Below, piece after piece: positions 36,753-55,913 of a stretch of 64,000 nt of DNA; positions within the stretch are counted from its first letter, which is position 1; the number at the start of each line of letters is the position of its first letter. The DNA is from Candidatus Xianfuyuplasma coldseepsis (GTDB lineage: Bacteria; Bacillota_I; Bacilli_A; Izemoplasmatales; Izemoplasmataceae): assembly GCF_014023125.1 (NCBI RefSeq), contig NZ_CP048914.1, forward strand, positions 558,001 through 622,000, in the 5' to 3' direction. A program made the position numbers and the translations under genes. The notes below the pieces were generated by a model. The model ran no database searches. It was given only the letters and a program-made list of their open reading frames with translations, and was not told where the DNA came from.

Positions 36753-37613
36753 TCAGTTCTTTTTAAACCAATGACGTCTCTTTTCAACTATTTCCTCTAA
36801 TCTCTCAACTTGAAGAAATTCTTGAATCTGATTTGTATTGTTGTATTTAACATAAAATCTGTCTTTATCCTCGTTAGATCTGTATAATGTTAAATCCTTT
36901 GTAATTTTCTTAACTTTAACTCCTTCTTGAAAATCCTTGCTTGAAGTGAATGAATCACCAATCTCTTTTACTTCTTTATTAAACACAACTCTTCCAAACA
37001 GAATCATTGGTACTGAAATTATAAAGGCTACAATTAGGTGTAAGGTACTTACTTCAAAAATCCTAAGTACAACTATAGATACAATTGTTGCAAGTAACTC
37101 ATTTATGTTTAAAAAGAAAAACAATCCAATTAGAGCAAAGATGGGAACAACCAATATGTATGCAACAAACACTAATCCATACAAGAGAAGATTTGCTATA
37201 GGCATTATTAACCAGAATAAGACTTTATTCCAGAATCCACTGTACTTTTTGTATATGGTTAAAGACTCTAAATAAAGCTTCACAATTTGATCCCAAAACA
37301 ATTTTGAAGTTTTTAATATGTAATCCTTAAGACTATCCTTAATTCTACAAACATACATCCTATAATATCTATGACTTAATACAACTACTAAGAGGTATAT
37401 AAAGAACACCATTCCAAAAACTATTGGCTTAATCTTCTCCAAAAGATACAAATATGCCATACCAACTGCTCCAGCAGATAAAACCAATGACAACCAATTA
37501 TCCACTACCCACGAGAATCCATCCTTATCAACTCCCATTATCATTCTTTCAACTTTAGACATCCGAAAGTATGATACTATTTTACTTACAAAGTTGATTT
37601 CTTCAATTTTCAT
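36753..37613 (-). CDS. uncharacterised multi-helix membrane protein
   Basis: 286 residues with about five or six membrane helices, including WLSLVLSAGAVGMAYLYLL, PIVFGMVFFIYLLVVVLS and two long hydrophobic stretches between residues ~140 and 215. A cytoplasmic C-terminal tail of about 70 residues is rich in Lys, Glu and Arg (EEIVEKRRHWFKKN). No family recognised. GGAGGGG precedes the ATG. First gene of the larger island unit, immediately inside the rlmH junction, and likely co-transcribed with the next gene. Confidence 0.6.
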   Translation of the reverse strand: MKIEEINFVSKIVSYFRMSKVERMIMGVDKDGFSWVVDNWLSLVLSAGAVGMAYLYLLEKIKPIVFGMVFFIYLLVVVLSHRYYRMYVCRIKDSLKDYILKTSKLFWDQIVKLYLESLTIYKKYSGFWNKVLFWLIMPIANLLLYGLVFVAYILVVPIFALIGLFFFLNINELLATIVSIVVLRIFEVSTLHLIVAFIISVPMILFGRVVFNKEVKEIGDSFTSSKDFQEGVKVKKITKDLTLYRSNEDKDRFYVKYNNTNQIQEFLQVERLEEIVEKRRHWFKKN

Positions 37614-37907: not shown

Positions 37908-38366
37908 GTTGTTAATTCTAAAGGAACGATATAGTTGTTCTAGTAGGATCAAACGCATTAGTTGATGAGGGAATGTAAAAGAGGAGAAAGATAGCTCTAA
38001 GTCTGTTTTTCGTAATACAGAGTTGGATAGTCCTAAAGAACCTCCAATAATGAATGTAATATGAGAAGAGTTGTAGGTTTTGATGTCTTCAATCTTATTG
38101 GCGAGTTCTTCTGATGAAAAGGCATGGCCTTTTATGGTTAAGGCAATTACATAGGAATCGGATGGGATTTTTGCGAGGATCTTATCTCCCTCTTTATCTT
38201 TCACCTGGTCTTGTTCCTTGGTGGAAAGAGACTCTGGGGCTTTTTCATCTTTTACTTCAATGATATTTAATTTGGCATAAGAGGATAGACGTTTTGTATA
38301 TTCCTCTATTCCTTGATTTAGATAATTCTCTTTTATTTTACCAACTGCAATGATTGTGATATTCAT
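37887..38366 (-). CDS. rlmH: 23S rRNA (pseudouridine-1915 N3)-methyltransferase RlmH
   Basis: 159 residues, full length. SPOUT-class methyltransferase acting on helix 69 of 23S rRNA. The SAM-binding knot [10 protein letters not shown] and the C-terminal [21 protein letters not shown] followed by NEPYHK are diagnostic. The ATG overlaps the stop of the upstream membrane-protein gene by four bases. Its 3' end is the insertion site of the island; integration has preserved the reading frame. Confidence 0.96.
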
Positions 38367-39241
38367 TCGTATTCACCTTCTAGAATTTGATGGGCAACTT
38401 CATCGGCAAAGCGAAGAAGTTCAAATAGTGGTTCACTGTACTCTTGTAAAGATTGATAATCCAGTTCTTTTGGTAGTTTAAATTTATGTTTTAATGAAAT
38501 GGCGACAGCCACTTCTTTCAAATCGGAAGCAACATAGTAACTGTGCGTTTCAAATGTACGAGGGATTGCTTGAAAGATGCTGTAAAGAATAGAATCTGGA
38601 TGAGTTGTAGGTTGATCTTCTGGGACAAATATCTTATCTTCATATTCCCCTAAACGAGTCATTTTGATACCCTTAATGTGTGGTTTTCCTTTACTACGGA
38701 GTTGTTGTCGTGGGATGTTATCGATTGGGATTCGAATATAGAATCCATCAAAATGAGTTGTTGTATTTTTCCCATCCGATGTGGTCATAGTACAACGGAA
38801 GATGTTGTATTTTGCATCGTTATTAAGTCCGGATGTGATTACGAATTTTGAGCTGATACTCGCATGTCTGGTAAATAGACCCATATCGATATTGAATTGT
38901 TTATCGACATTTGCTTTGTATTCATAAATGTAATCCATGTCGTGTTGGGAATTGTATAGGTTCATCAACTCTTGATTTAAATACTCGTTTTTTAGTTTAT
39001 TATTGCGCGTTGTAGCAGCGATAAAATAAATCAATACCATCAGAAAGATACTTGATCCCATTACACTAATGGGAACATACCATTCAAGTCCTGTGGAATA
39101 CAGAACAATACTGAGAATAATGACGACTAAAAAGATGATTGTATAGCTAAAAGTGAACTGCTTTTTCGCTTTTCGATTCATTTCCACACGCAGTTCGTTG
39201 ATTGTACTAATGACGCTGTCATAGGTTGTATATGAATTCAT
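38363..39241 (-). CDS. membrane protein with DUF3137-like domain
   Basis: 292 residues. Two adjacent membrane helices (residues ~30-72: [18 protein letters not shown] and [21 protein letters not shown]), then a soluble domain with [12 protein letters not shown] resembling DUF3137 proteins. Predicted cytoplasmic flanks are charged. The gene overlaps rlmH by four bases (ATGA), so the two are translationally coupled. Function unknown. Confidence 0.6.
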
Positions 39242-39377: not shown

Positions 39378-40586
39378 ATGATTATTAGACCATCCATACG
39401 TAATAATTTCTTTACCAATGCCCATCCGGAAGGATGTAAAATAACCTTAGAAAACCAGATTAACGAAGCGAAACAACAGGAGCCATTTGACGGTCCAAAG
39501 AATGTTTTAATTATCGGCGGATCCAGTGGTTATGGACTCGCGAGTCGAATTAGTTTAGCTTATGGATCAAACGCCAATACCGTTAACGTATCATTTGAAT
39601 CCGCTCCACGCGGAAAACGGACGGGAAGCGCAGGTTTTTGGAACAATGTGTTCTTCCAGCATTTCGCTAAAGAAACGGGAAATATCCATAAAGATTTCTT
39701 AGGGGATGCGTTTAGTCCCGAGACCAAGGAACTAGTTCTCAACTATGTTAAAGACACCTTTGATGGATTGGATCTGATTGTCTATAGTTTAGCCAGTGGA
39801 GTACGTAAAAACTTCAACACTGGAGAGACGGTTCGTTCAAGTATCAAATCCCTTGGTGAACCTGTTGTTGGAACCACAATTGATATCGCGAGTATGACAG
39901 CTTATGAACTAGAAGTCCTACCTGCGAGTGAACAAGAAGTGAAGGATACCGTCTATGTCATGGGTGGTAGTGATTGGGCTGATTGGGTTCATACATTTGG
40001 AGAAGCTGGGGTATTAAATCAAGGATTTAAAACCATTGCTTATACCTATATTGGTGGTCCAACCACAGAAAACATCTACCGTAGAGGTAGTTTGGGACAG
40101 GCCAAGGAAGATTTGGAAGCTCATGCCTATCAAATGAATCAAAAACTACAAGAACAATACAATGGCGAAGCGTTAATCTCATCGAGCAAGGCTGTGGTGA
40201 GTAAGGCCAGTGTATTTATCCCCCAACTTCCAATCTACTGTGCTTGCTTGTTTGACGTGATGAAGGAACGCAAGATTCATGAAACCATCTTAGAGCACAA
40301 GTATCGTTTGTTTAAAGATATGGTGTATGGCGAACAACGGATTATAGACAACAAAGGACGAATTCGTCTCGATCACTTGGAAATGGATCCATCGGTACAA
40401 GAGGACGTTACCAATCGAATGGAACATGTTACAAAAGAGAACCTCTTCTCTTTACAAGGTACCAAAGATTTCATTCATGAGTTCTTCCAAATCAATGGAT
40501 TTAATATTGATTCCATTGATTATGAGGCCGATGTTGATATCGATGAATATGTCACAAAATACGTTCCAAAAGACTTACAAATCTAA
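39378..40586 (+). CDS. fabV: trans-2-enoyl-ACP reductase, FabV type
   Basis: 402 residues, the length typical of FabV. Reduces enoyl-ACP or enoyl-CoA with NADH in the last step of fatty-acid elongation; FabV is triclosan-insensitive. The start MIIRPSIRNNFFTNAHPEG, the nucleotide-binding LIIGGSSGYGLASRI and the active-site region YTYIGGPTTENIYRRGSLGQ, which carries the Y-x8-K-type catalytic residues, all match. AAGGAG lies eight bases before the ATG at 39378. No other fab genes are near. FabV is best known from Proteobacteria and some Firmicutes, so transfer in the past is possible. Confidence 0.94.
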   Translation: MIIRPSIRNNFFTNAHPEGCKITLENQINEAKQQEPFDGPKNVLIIGGSSGYGLASRISLAYGSNANTVNVSFESAPRGKRTGSAGFWNNVFFQHFAKETGNIHKDFLGDAFSPETKELVLNYVKDTFDGLDLIVYSLASGVRKNFNTGETVRSSIKSLGEPVVGTTIDIASMTAYELEVLPASEQEVKDTVYVMGGSDWADWVHTFGEAGVLNQGFKTIAYTYIGGPTTENIYRRGSLGQAKEDLEAHAYQMNQKLQEQYNGEALISSSKAVVSKASVFIPQLPIYCACLFDVMKERKIHETILEHKYRLFKDMVYGEQRIIDNKGRIRLDHLEMDPSVQEDVTNRMEHVTKENLFSLQGTKDFIHEFFQINGFNIDSIDYEADVDIDEYVTKYVPKDLQI

Positions 40587-40613
40587 AAACACAACTGCGG
40601 TTGTGTTTTTTTT
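40585..40613 (+). terminator. intrinsic terminator
   Basis: AACACAAC, TGCG loop, GTTGTGTT followed by T8. Confidence 0.9.
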
Positions 40614-40748: not shown

Positions 40749-43700
40749 ATGAAACGAATAGTTTTACTGGGAATTGTATTATTGACAGGATTCACACTAT
40801 CTGGTTGTGATTTAATTCCACAAAGTGTAGTGGAACAAGTTAGTGAAGAATTATGTCGGGAAGACCCCACAAATGAATTATGTCTGATTGATGATTTAAG
40901 TGACATTACAGAGACGGTTGCCGAAGAACTCGTTATCGATGCCATCAATACATTAAATGCAGCAGATCCGGAGTTGTGTGACACGGTATTTTCCATCACC
41001 AATACGGATTTAATCGATGCTTGTAAAGCGGGAACCTTATTACCAGAAGGTGTCACCTCATTTACAGTACTAACATTTGAGCAAACCGGAGACACCTATA
41101 CCTTTAAAGGATCGACTGGGGAAACTTCATTTATGGAAGTACAGATGACGATTGGTGATGTCGATGGAAACATGCGTGTTACATCGTTTATGACGACCGT
41201 TATTGATGATCCGACACTACCCGCGGATGTGGGTGCGACGGAGTTTGAAAATTTCTTCAAACAATTTATTAGTGATTATTTGAATACAGCGATTACCACT
41301 GAAGCGCTCGTTGCAAGTTATTTCGAAACAGCGCCCGATTCAGATTTTGCTAAGGATCGTACCGAAACGCAAACCAGTGGCGTCGTCATCACTTATGTAT
41401 CCAGTGACCTAATTGAACCGAACTACTATAAAGTAACGCTAGAATTTGATGAGAACGGATCACAACGGACAGAAGAAGTCGCCGTTCGCGTTAACCGCAT
41501 TGAGATGGCACTTGTCTTAGAGTTTGATGATATTGATGATGACTGTGATGGCATTGATGATGAATGTGTCGTTGACGATCCGGTTACCACAAAAGAGTTT
41601 AATACGTTACTCGATGATTTCATTGCTGATTATTTAGATTTTACCATCAGTGATGTAGATCTAGAGATGATGTATTTTATGAATAACATGCTCAGTGACT
41701 TTGGTATGAGTCGCCAAGACGATTTAACCAATGGATTACAAATTACAGTTGTATCAACCATGATGAAAGAAAACAACAAATACGACGTCACTCTTGAATT
41801 TACAGAAGATGGAACAAAACGGACGGAAACGATTGAAGTTCGAGTGAATCGGATTGACATGGCACTCTATTTAGAGTTTGATGACACAGATGATGATTGT
41901 GATGGTATTGATGACGACTGTGATGCTCCAGTAACAACCGAAGAGTTCACATCGTTATTCAATCAATTCATTCTCGATTACTTTGATACTACAATGAGTG
42001 ATGCAGATCTTGAGATGAAATACTTTATGGAAGCCACACTATTCGATTTCGGTATGAGTCGTCAAGAAGATCAAACAAGTGGTGTGATAATTTCATTACT
42101 ATCTGCTACACCAATGGAAGACAACAAGTTTACGGTCGTTCTCGAATTTGATGAGAATGGAGTAAAACGTACAGAGACAATTGAAGTGCGTGTAAATCGA
42201 ATTGAAATGGCACTCTATCTAGAATTTGATGAAGGAATTGATGAGGATTGTGACAATATCGAAGATGTTTGTGAAAATGGTGATTCACTTGTTGGTGATG
42301 AAGCCAAACTACTCTTAGAAGCCTACTTCAATGATTATAGCAATCCAGACATCGATAATGAAACCTTTGCGATGTATTATTTCAACAATATGGTAGATGA
42401 TATGTTCGCTGACATGCGGACTCAAGATTTGGCCGAGGGTGCAGTATATGAATTATTGAATGTCAACTTCTTTGATGATGGTACGTTTGAGGCTGAATTT
42501 TCACGTACGGCCGGAACTGACTATTGGATCCGGAAACGACCTGGACGAATTCGTTATGAAACCAGTGCATTTGTTGTCGAATGGGGAAATCCCTATGACG
42601 AATTTGCGATGGGATTAGAAGCGATTGATTTCCTCAAAGCATACTTCAATGACTACGGTAATCCAACAATAAGCAATCAAGACTTTGCTGATATGTACTT
42701 AGGTGGTATGTTAACCGAAGATTTCGCAGTAAAACGGGATATGGATCTTGCAGATGGTGCAGTATTTGCATATCAAACGGTACACTTTAATGAAGATGGA
42801 TCATTTGAAGTCGAGTACACCCGCACGGTTGGTGAAGACATCATTTTACGTAAACGTCCTGGACGGATACGTAAACGTCCCGACCTACTCACCGCAGAAT
42901 GGGATGCTCTTATCGATGAGCATATAGAGACTGATATCAATGTTGTGACAGAAACCTTTACGGCCTTTGTATCAGATTACTTGAATCCTGAAATCAGTAA
43001 CGATGATTTACAGGCCATCTATTTTGGTGATATGGATATGACGTGGTTCTTCGAACAACGTCAAGACGACTTAACCAAAGGATTAATGATTACGGTTGTC
43101 ACGGTTGAACCATTGGATGAATATGGCCACTTCTTAGTCCACGTAGATGTGACTTCCGGTGAAGAGACCATGCGAGAAGTTGTTCCGGTTAAAGTCATGA
43201 AACGAATCGATCAAACAACACCACTTTTATACATCCTTGATGGTGGTGGAGAAGATAACGATTGTGATTTGATTGGTGATTTCTGTGAAATTGTTACAGA
43301 TCCAATGATGGCCGAAAGCTACATGGAATTATTCTTACAAGAATACAACAACCCCGACATCACAAATGATGTACTACAAATGTATTATCTCGATTACTTC
43401 TGGATGTTAGACATGCGTCAAGAAGACTTGGCGATGGGATTAATGTGGAGTATTGATACAGTAGAGCATCTTGATGACAATACGTTCCTATTCCGCTTAT
43501 CCTCCTTACACGCTGAAGGTGTTGTGCATCGTGATATTGCAGCTCGTGTCTATCACAATGGTTCAATTGCTTACTTCAGAGACAAAGGTGTTGATCCTGA
43601 TGGCTGTATCCTTACAACAAACGTATGTCACTTTATGACGGTTGTTGATGACGAACAACTCATACAAGATATATTCGTCAGTTTCCTTCAAGATTTCGTC

Positions 43701-44345
43701 AATCAGGATATGACCTTTGAAGAAATCAATCAACACTACTTCATGGGAAAAGCTCCGGAATTCTTACGTGATCACTTTGAAACCAATAACCCACGAGGGG
43801 CAACCGTTGAGTTTACCTCGATAATGCCCAATAGCGATCTTCCCGGTTTCTATGATATGGCATATAGTATGGTGACACCAACCTTTACCAAACAACATAA
43901 CGTTACCGTTATTTTATGGATGGTAGATGGCATGCCGATGTTTGAGTTCTACGATCCCAATAACGACTGTCACAACGATCCCTATGCATGTGTGACACCA
44001 ATGATGTTTGAACACAATTTAGATATTCTGAATCCGTTTGTCGAAGAGTTCTTCGTATTGTTAAATGATCCTACATTCAGTGATGATATGATCGCAGCAA
44101 TGTTTACTGATTGGATGGCTCCGGAGTCCTTATTGAGTTACCGAGCAAATGGAAATGGTGGAGCTGTATTTGTCTTTGAACGAATCGATGCACCCGATGA
44201 TATCACGGTTGATCCATTCTTCACCGTAACCTATACCGTTACACTACCAGATCAAGAGACCGTTACAGAGTCCTTCCGTGTTCAGTTTGTCTATACGGAA
44301 ATGGGACTGTTAATGGGTATCGAAAAAGCAGACGTTAAACGTTAA
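40749..44345 (+). CDS. 1198-residue surface lipoprotein of nine degenerate repeats
   Basis: Signal peptide MKRIVLLGIVLLTGFTLSGC (lipobox LSGC). After a ~110-residue N-terminal part come nine consecutive units of roughly 100-120 residues, each starting with a helix such as FxxFIxDYLxxxISDxDLxxxYF, then FxxxRQxDLTxG and strands ending VRVNRIxMALYLEFD. Units 1-3 are close copies; 4-5 form a second subtype (KRPGRIR); 6-9 are divergent. Links between units hold an acidic Cys motif such as DTDDDCDGIDDDCD, resembling calcium-binding thrombospondin-3/EF-hand loops. No enzyme motif seen. Probably a surface adhesin or binding protein. AAAGGAG precedes the ATG, and the gene is transcribed alone. Confidence 0.85.
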   Translation: MKRIVLLGIVLLTGFTLSGCDLIPQSVVEQVSEELCREDPTNELCLIDDLSDITETVAEELVIDAINTLNAADPELCDTVFSITNTDLIDACKAGTLLPEGVTSFTVLTFEQTGDTYTFKGSTGETSFMEVQMTIGDVDGNMRVTSFMTTVIDDPTLPADVGATEFENFFKQFISDYLNTAITTEALVASYFETAPDSDFAKDRTETQTSGVVITYVSSDLIEPNYYKVTLEFDENGSQRTEEVAVRVNRIEMALVLEFDDIDDDCDGIDDECVVDDPVTTKEFNTLLDDFIADYLDFTISDVDLEMMYFMNNMLSDFGMSRQDDLTNGLQITVVSTMMKENNKYDVTLEFTEDGTKRTETIEVRVNRIDMALYLEFDDTDDDCDGIDDDCDAPVTTEEFTSLFNQFILDYFDTTMSDADLEMKYFMEATLFDFGMSRQEDQTSGVIISLLSATPMEDNKFTVVLEFDENGVKRTETIEVRVNRIEMALYLEFDEGIDEDCDNIEDVCENGDSLVGDEAKLLLEAYFNDYSNPDIDNETFAMYYFNNMVDDMFADMRTQDLAEGAVYELLNVNFFDDGTFEAEFSRTAGTDYWIRKRPGRIRYETSAFVVEWGNPYDEFAMGLEAIDFLKAYFNDYGNPTISNQDFADMYLGGMLTEDFAVKRDMDLADGAVFAYQTVHFNEDGSFEVEYTRTVGEDIILRKRPGRIRKRPDLLTAEWDALIDEHIETDINVVTETFTAFVSDYLNPEISNDDLQAIYFGDMDMTWFFEQRQDDLTKGLMITVVTVEPLDEYGHFLVHVDVTSGEETMREVVPVKVMKRIDQTTPLLYILDGGGEDNDCDLIGDFCEIVTDPMMAESYMELFLQEYNNPDITNDVLQMYYLDYFWMLDMRQEDLAMGLMWSIDTVEHLDDNTFLFRLSSLHAEGVVHRDIAARVYHNGSIAYFRDKGVDPDGCILTTNVCHFMTVVDDEQLIQDIFVSFLQDFVNQDMTFEEINQHYFMGKAPEFLRDHFETNNPRGATVEFTSIMPNSDLPGFYDMAYSMVTPTFTKQHNVTVILWMVDGMPMFEFYDPNNDCHNDPYACVTPMMFEHNLDILNPFVEEFFVLLNDPTFSDDMIAAMFTDWMAPESLLSYRANGNGGAVFVFERIDAPDDITVDPFFTVTYTVTLPDQETVTESFRVQFVYTEMGLLMGIEKADVKR

Positions 44346-44349
44346 AAAA

Positions 44350-44378
44350 TAAAACACAACCTCGCGGTTGTGTTTTTT
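44350..44378. terminator. bidirectional terminator
   Basis: AAACACAACC, TCGC loop, GGTTGTGTTT with T-rich tail. Confidence 0.9.
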
Positions 44379-54786: not shown

Positions 54787-54813
54787 AAAACAAAACCACA
54801 CTGTGGTTTTGTT
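54787..54813 (-). terminator. intrinsic terminator after the thioredoxin-like lipoprotein
   Basis: ACAAAACCACA/TGTGGTTTTGT stem with a T-rich tail on the minus strand. Confidence 0.85.
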
Positions 54814-55913
54814 CACTGATAGGTTGAAAAATCAATAATACCTTGACGATAATCATCAATGAAGTTGGGAACTTGTACAGAACCTATATAGGACTCTACG
54901 ACTTCTCCATTGTATATAACATATAAGCTTGGCGTCCCCATAAAGTCATCAATCTTGACGAGTCCAACCGCACTAGAGGTATTAATTAGATAGTACGGAA
55001 CCGTATCTAAATAGTATAAGAATGACAACATCTTTGTCTTAATCGAGTTGCAGTGAGAACAATAAGGACTGTAATAATATTCAAGATGTAGATCATCGGT
55101 AATCGTTAATGTATCACCAAAATTTGTCAGATGATGGTCGATGAAATCGTCATAATCAAGGGTGTTCAATGATGTATAGATATCGCCATCGCCAACAATA
55201 TTCATATACTGCGTGATCTCATCACTGCCTAAATAGTATTCTTCTGCATATACACCGTAGGACATGAGGAGAATCATTGGATTTCCCATGGAGATAGTAT
55301 CCAACTCATCAGGGATGGTCTCTATAGTTGTATGATCGATTAAATAGATATCTTCGATACTTTTGGTGAAGGCAAACTTTAAGAATGCTTCTTGCAAGGA
55401 CATAGCTTGCTCATCACTAGGATCATAAACATAAAGAAGATAATCACTATTATTAATAGTTAGTGCGTCATTTATGTTTGATAGATGCTGATTGTCAAAT
55501 GCATCATAGGTCCATTCCTTTGATGAGTACGATGAGATAAAGGTCGTAATCTCATCACTACCGGTATAGGTTTCAAGCGGTTCATGGTGTGATACAACAT
55601 ATACAATCGGTTCATCAACATAGGCACCAAAATCAGATGTCACATTCGGATTAGCAGACGCATCAACCATGTATAGTGGTAAGTCATTATACGATTCTAT
55701 AAATGTTAGGACGTCGTTTTTGATCGTATTTGATGCGTCATCGGTGGAGTCATAGTAATATAAAATATAGCGATTATTACTCAGGGTTTCGGCTTGAAAG
55801 TAGGTTGCAATGATGTTGTCCTCAAAGTCAGAATAATCAAGTTCTTCTTGTTTACATGAACTAAGTAGAACAATTGCTATGGCAGATGATACGAAAATCA
55901 ATAAACGTTTCAT
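54813..55913 (-). CDS. lipoprotein with three thioredoxin-like domains, only the last with CxxC
   Basis: 366 residues with a lipoprotein signal (MKRLLIFVSSAIAIVLLSSC). Three successive units of about 105-115 residues share the pattern YLLYxYDPSxExxxxx...IYLIDxxxxE...GNPxILLMSxGxxxxxYxGSDEITxYI. Only the third keeps a redox motif (YSPYCSHCNSIKTKM, CSHC); the first two have acidic or polar residues there (DSTDDASN, DPSDEQAM). Probably an extracytoplasmic thiol-disulfide protein, or one that binds partners through the inactive domains. The start overlaps the upstream GH13 stop by four bases. Confidence 0.82.
   Translation of the reverse strand: MKRLLIFVSSAIAIVLLSSCKQEELDYSDFEDNIIATYFQAETLSNNRYILYYYDSTDDASNTIKNDVLTFIESYNDLPLYMVDASANPNVTSDFGAYVDEPIVYVVSHHEPLETYTGSDEITTFISSYSSKEWTYDAFDNQHLSNINDALTINNSDYLLYVYDPSDEQAMSLQEAFLKFAFTKSIEDIYLIDHTTIETIPDELDTISMGNPMILLMSYGVYAEEYYLGSDEITQYMNIVGDGDIYTSLNTLDYDDFIDHHLTNFGDTLTITDDLHLEYYYSPYCSHCNSIKTKMLSFLYYLDTVPYYLINTSSAVGLVKIDDFMGTPSLYVIYNGEVVESYIGSVQVPNFIDDYRQGIIDFSTYQ

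Follow-up and report, generated by a model that had tools for sequence, protein, structure and literature searches.

A lipid-anchored array of ten tandem units with a predicted NTF2-like fold and acidic, cysteine-bearing joints in the wall-less bacterium Candidatus Xianfuyuplasma coldseepsis

What kind of protein is the 1198-residue repeat lipoprotein encoded in a 64,000-nucleotide stretch of the Candidatus Xianfuyuplasma coldseepsis genome (contig NZ_CP048914.1, positions 558,001 to 622,000; the whole stretch is called the window here)? An earlier note on this DNA had described nine homologous units joined by Asp/Cys-rich linkers, and had assigned the layout to no known family. The host strain, zrk13, is a cultured, wall-less and strictly anaerobic deep-sea bacterium (PMC8397711). 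The answer proposed here is a lineage-specific surface lipoprotein of wall-less Izemoplasmataceae that would consist of a lipid anchor and, behind it, ten NTF2-like alpha/beta units in tandem with Ca2+- and disulfide-clasped joints, forming part of the surface coat or an adhesive fibre. Taken together, this reading is moderately probable; the anatomy of the array is well supported and carries high confidence, and the cellular role as surface coat or adhesive fibre is a guess, with slightly less than an even chance of being right. Unit homology, the lipobox, the predicted fold of two units, the pairwise evolution of cysteines and the lineage-specific duplication of units constitute the computed support.

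A hidden Markov model (HMM) profile delimited nine homologous units of about 105 amino acids (aa) in the protein. Their homology was assessed with a profile trained on paralogous proteins only, the window protein and its orthologues having been removed, and this profile recovered 9/9 units with E-values of 2.6e-16 to 4.3e-6, while the best value among 294 shuffled or reversed controls at equal search size was 0.015. The nine homologous units of the earlier note are borne out by this result, and the refutation test defined in advance, on the homology of repeats 4-9 to repeats 1-3, left that homology standing. Since the same profile recovers units 8 and 9, which are weak in pairwise comparison, both can be regarded as true members. 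The count itself needs a correction, as aa 55-155 are, by profile comparison, a degenerate tenth unit (unit 0), scoring E 0.76 in the window protein and about 1e-9 in several paralogues.

Pairwise identity reaches 50-59% among units 1-3 and 47% between units 4 and 5, and lies at 11-35% for the remaining pairs. The early repeats are indeed close and the later ones diverged, as had been observed, but units 4 and 5 form a second close pair and the expression "close copies" holds only in a relative sense, because nucleotide identity among units 1-3 is 57-69%. Considering this identity and a synonymous divergence (dS) near saturation, the duplications appear to be old. Where dS is estimable, the ratio of nonsynonymous to synonymous divergence (dN/dS) among units 1-3 is about 0.1-0.2, and the unit copies look to be under purifying selection, a reading made at near-saturated dS. 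No tandem array was detected at the DNA level by Tandem Repeats Finder, save short runs, mainly of linker Asp codons. The protein resembles the repeat surface lipoproteins of Mollicutes in its wall-less host, its lipobox, its tandem units and the turnover of copy number between lineages, and differs from them in that its unit fold and sequence match none in the libraries searched. Additionally, there is no sign of phase variation, because a recent DNA-level array is absent even among the closest units.

The fold was predicted by AlphaFold2 on unit 2, with an alignment of 102 units. The resulting model (mean predicted local distance difference test score, pLDDT, 87, core mostly 94-98; predicted template-modelling score, pTM, 0.78) has the order a-a-a-b-b-b-b, and its top fold matches in the PDB were nearly all NTF2-like; we take the matched structures to be MTB12, the N-terminal domain of PBP2a, NTF2 proteins designed de novo, TraM and PARC6. 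Each match alone is modest (Foldseek probability about 1.0, template-modelling score, TM, 0.5-0.6, best E 8.5e-3), and the assignment is made because the matches agree with one another. When unit 2, its linker and unit 3 were modelled together, two copies of one domain were obtained; how they are oriented to each other is not defined by the model (pTM 0.56), and the linker has low confidence. The model of the pair matched the tandem NTF2 pairs of OrfG/TcpC (8s7l, 7pkw, 3ub1), the E-values being 5e-5 to 1e-3 and the TM values low because the domains are oriented differently. The unit is predicted to consist of helices packed on a curved antiparallel sheet, giving the cone of NTF2-like domains.

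At the sequence level, no Pfam NTF2-like family gave a match above chance among the 102 units, no Pfam or NCBIfam family exceeded its cut-off for the protein, units or linkers, and PDB sequences yielded no natural relative, the best match being a de novo NTF2-type design (E 0.0017). SecDF_P1_head, Flo11 and MAG6450 appeared in these searches only as sub-threshold or scattered matches and were rejected. Since sequence-level matches to NTF2 families are lacking, the claim is limited to an NTF2-like fold and does not extend to membership of a named family. The view that no known family has this layout is therefore upheld by sequence, a clear match to a known domain family having been looked for in Pfam and NCBIfam and not found, and has to be given up for the predicted fold of the unit.

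NTF2-like domains are usually single or paired. Members of the superfamily such as MTB12, the PBP2a N-terminal domain, TraM and VirB8 share with the units the predicted a-a-a-b-b-b-b order and a four-stranded sheet, whereas complete members of the lipoprotein family show about 4-19 recognised units per chain, against one or two, and no Pfam sequence match. The VirB8-like conjugation proteins TcpC/OrfG (PF12642) likewise place two tandem NTF2-like domains outside the membrane; however, they have a transmembrane anchor and are part of a conjugation machine (PMC8012802), whereas the window lipoprotein is lipid-anchored, has ten units and is encoded by a gene standing alone. No TcpC match was found in it, and its neighbours are the metabolic and transport genes given below, not conjugation genes.

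An NTF2-like cone may also provide a pocket, and the array could be a multivalent receptor for foraging or sensing whose pockets bind a small molecule or peptide. Lipid-anchored NTF2-like domains of unknown function exist in the literature, and downstream of the gene lie those for an ABC transporter of the branched-chain amino-acid type and for its binding protein; however, that transporter sits past a terminator and an opposite-strand gene, the gene surroundings of the two orthologues differ from those in the window, and units down to 11-20% identity are unlike carriers of a common binding site. Moreover, the sheet side of the unit has no strongly conserved polar residue, the conserved ones (Arg 87%, Tyr 74%, Asp-Tyr) being in helices, and such a receptor is unlikely. 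Given the same distribution of conserved residues and a net charge of -177, an enzyme or a nucleic-acid binder is also unlikely. The capture of extracellular DNA as food for the host, which does degrade such DNA (PMC8397711, PMC8289736), would agree with the position of a ~19-unit paralogue near a putative 5'-nucleotidase (identified by eye), but it is very improbable for a protein with 20.5% acidic and 5.8% basic residues, in which a basic patch occurs in units 4 and 5 only (RKRPGRIRKRPD in unit 5).

The joints of the proposed array have a composition of their own. Cys-x6-Cys was found in 6/8 linkers, with all twelve such cysteines inside linkers and six exact pairs against 0.27 expected (maximum of 2 in 200 shuffles). 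The paired cysteines that the first reading had described are thus present in six linkers, four of which also show its calcium-loop-like Asp pattern with EF-type ligand spacing, and missing from the u4-u5 and u5-u6 linkers, which carry no Asp/Cys motif. If their first Cys is numbered 4, linkers 1, 2, 3 and 6 conform to D-x-D-C-D-[GNL]-I-x-D-x-C-[VDE]. This is an acidic loop of 12 residues, similar to those of EF-hands and MopE, in which the ligands have an EF-hand-like spacing and the cysteines stand at positions 4 and 11. When tested as Dx[DN]xDG loops (acidic at 1, 3, 5, 9 and 12), linkers 2, 3 and 6 had all five ligands, linker 1 lacked position 12, and linkers 7 and 8 failed.

The MopE motif (PF11617) and the Dx[DN]xDG loops of EF-hand and thrombospondin type 3 proteins share with the linkers the D-x-D-C-D-G-I-x-D spacing, a likeness that stays below threshold. 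The window loops differ in the second Cys at position 11, and those of the family are placed either in the a2-a3 loop or at the junction of two NTF2-like units. The PF11617 "putative metal-binding motif" profile gave no match in the window linkers, and reached 15.5, 19.1 and 18.4 bits (E 0.022, 0.0016 and 0.0026) in relatives, under its curated cut-off of 27. In two relatives, L038 (genome G001) and L035 (G008), CxxWYDG(V/I)D(D/E)DCDG (e.g. CxxWYDGVDDDCDGII) lies between helices 2 and 3 of the unit itself, so that the acidic Cys loop occurs within units as well as between them. The Asp loop and the Cys pair are separable, since linkers 7 and 8 keep only the cysteines and the orthologue L044 (G002C2) has Asp-Gly loops without Cys.

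These features could also be read as MopE-type transition-metal sites (Cu, Zn or Fe) with Cys ligands, in an array that scavenges or buffers metal. Cysteines adjoining Asp clusters, the sub-threshold PF11617 matches in relatives and an anoxic habitat, where thiols could remain reduced, would suit such sites; but those matches all fall short of the cut-off, and units that have no Asp cluster pair their cysteines just as strictly, a pattern more in keeping with disulfides than with metal ligands. Linkers 7 and 8 have the pair without acidic ligands, and in the Asp-Gly linkers of L044 the acidic residues stand without Cys, like those of EF-type Ca2+ loops. Transition-metal sites are accordingly quite improbable. 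Ca2+ binding by the acidic linkers is plausible, with a somewhat better than even chance.

The cysteines of the family follow a pairwise rule. As for unit positions 30 and 42, 56 units carry Cys at both and 43 at neither, and in three apparent single-Cys units the partner is displaced in the alignment. The mature Cys count is even in 16/16 complete family proteins (range 10 to 38), the lipobox of two having been assigned by hand (GTG-started L031; L036); these proteins are related, and a nominal 2^-16 overstates the independence of the pattern. The window protein has 17 cysteines, one carrying lipid and 16 others. Considering the even-Cys rule and the strict in-unit pairing, all mature cysteines would be paired, and they are very probably disulfide-bonded, which predicts many disulfides in an anaerobe without the usual oxidation partners.

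On the proposed reading of a clasped, lipid-anchored array, the chain would stand out from the membrane like a string of beads with acidic joints, a disulfide would close each C-x6-C joint, and the 12-residue acidic loop would bind Ca2+ in four joints and stiffen them. Ca2+ is abundant in seawater and stiffens cadherin and thrombospondin type-3 regions. The array might then serve the coat as a long structural or adhesive element, with the gain and loss of units tuning how far it reaches, which is the most speculative step. Several observations weigh against this proposal. The fold is a prediction whose single-unit matches are individually weak; the linker is disordered in the AlphaFold2 model (pLDDT about 48-64), a method that cannot show an ion-bound state; and Ca2+ stiffening cannot apply to every joint, because two linkers lack the motif and two the acidic ligands. 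In addition, the host is a strict anaerobe, grown in a medium that includes cysteine (PMC8397711), and neither DsbB, VKOR nor CcdA/DsbD was found in its genome, so that disulfide formation would need another route.

Regarding such a route, a DsbA-family match (PF01323) was rejected as an exported oxidase, since it lacks a signal peptide and looks like a cytosolic FrnE type. A 366-aa lipoprotein in the window (54813-55913, minus strand) has a C-terminal thioredoxin domain (PF00085, E 1.6e-7) with a CSHC site, and the host genome encodes two membrane-anchored thioredoxin-like proteins, L101 (G000:C1:1169200-1169481) and L102 (85632-85913), with SCGAC and TCGAC sites, respectively. These three proteins could handle surface disulfides.

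Relatives were found in 14/90 genomes of the order and in 9/395 sampled genomes of the class, all in the same family except for one weak match, and none in the viral contigs searched; the protein family is, on this distribution, essentially confined to Izemoplasmataceae. The literature searched contains no account of tandem NTF2-like lipoproteins; the observation is real, and the family is specific to its lineage and, within that literature, undescribed. The window protein is one member of this broader family, and the host genome encodes a larger paralogue (L030:5633-11935, plus strand; 2101 aa, about 18-19 units, 12 in-unit Cys pairs). The neighbours of that paralogue, identified by eye, are a YczE-like membrane protein and 5'-nucleotidase-like, gamma-carbonic-anhydrase-like and aminotransferase genes, a set that recurs around the G002 copy and partly around other relatives. 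Two weak own-genome matches (C1:1053199 and C1:1240038; E 0.004-0.009) were set aside for want of a clear unit array, the latter lying in a different lipoprotein type with other repeats.

In the unit tree, window units 1-3 group as a triplet confined to this species, with a single G002 unit as sister, and the u4/u5 pair, moderately supported (91/89), stands beside another single G002 unit; G002 has a triplet of its own, and G027 alternates two unit types. These groupings indicate that the differences between orthologous arrays arose by tandem duplication of units within each lineage. Both the fold and the type of loop are already known, and the novelty lies in a lipoprotein of ten to twenty NTF2-like units with clasped acidic joints, through which a very common fold would be put to a new use. 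The surface layers of free-living bacteria without a cell wall have received little study, and the lipoprotein provides a defined family of surface proteins for them in a cultured strain. More tentatively, and rather doubtfully as yet, it might represent a new class of surface fibre, with about 10-20 NTF2-like domains and Ca2+ loops closed by a Cys4-Cys11 disulfide, forming part of a coat or adhesion layer in an anaerobe without standard Dsb partners.

The gene (Table 1) is preceded by a ribosome-binding-site-like AAGGAG and begins with a signal peptide closing in a lipobox Cys, as in bacterial lipoproteins (MKRIVLLGIVLLTGFTLSGC). An N-terminal module common to the family follows, in which Cys20, Cys36, Cys45, Cys77 and Cys92 are all invariant in 11 aligned members.

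Table 1. Positions of the lipoprotein gene, its units, linkers and flanking terminators in the window
Feature	Residues (aa)	Position	Strand	Basis or remark
Intrinsic terminator of upstream gene		40585..40610	+	
Whole gene, repeat lipoprotein	1198 in all	40749..44345	+	One uninterrupted frame
Signal peptide and lipobox TLSGC, lipid-carrying Cys20		40749..40808	+	Sequence; Cys20 invariant, 11 aligned family members
Family signature C-R-E-D-P-x4-C (Cys36/Cys45)		40854..40883	+	Pro and both Cys invariant, 11 members
Unit 0, degenerate tenth unit, with Cys77/Cys92	55-155	40911..41213	+	HMM; both Cys family-invariant
Unit 1	163-265	41235..41543	+	HMM
Linker loop 1, DDDCDGIDDECV	263-274	41535..41570	+	
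Unit 2, modelled a-a-a-b-b-b-b, NTF2-like	281-383	41589..41897	+	HMM, fold model
Linker loop 2, DDDCDGIDDDCD	381-392	41889..41924	+	
Unit 3, fold as unit 2 in two-unit model	397-500	41937..42248	+	HMM, fold model
Linker loop 3, DEDCDNIEDVCE	498-509	42240..42275	+	
Unit 4	516-618	42294..42602	+	HMM
Unit 5, with conserved RKRPGRIRKRPD	623-726	42615..42926	+	HMM
Unit 6	730-835	42936..43253	+	HMM
Linker loop 6, DNDCDLIGDFCE	836-847	43254..43289	+	Aligned Cys pair retained in both orthologues
Unit 7	852-948	43302..43592	+	HMM
Linker 7, PDGCILTTNVCH	950-961	43596..43631	+	Cys pair present, acidic ligands gone
Unit 8	969-1073	43653..43967	+	HMM
Linker 8, NNDCHNDPYACV	1071-1082	43959..43994	+	Cys pair present, loop degenerate
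Unit 9	1091-1195	44019..44333	+	HMM
Intrinsic terminator, bidirectional, 3' of gene		44351..44376	.	

The gene appears to be monocistronic, because the upstream gene has an intrinsic terminator of its own. Further upstream in the window, 36753-37613 and 38363-39241 (both on the minus strand) encode predicted membrane proteins without Pfam matches. The neighbours of the gene are ordinary, with a trans-2-enoyl-CoA reductase upstream and, on the other side, a HAD phosphatase on the opposite strand followed by the branched-chain amino-acid type ABC transporter.
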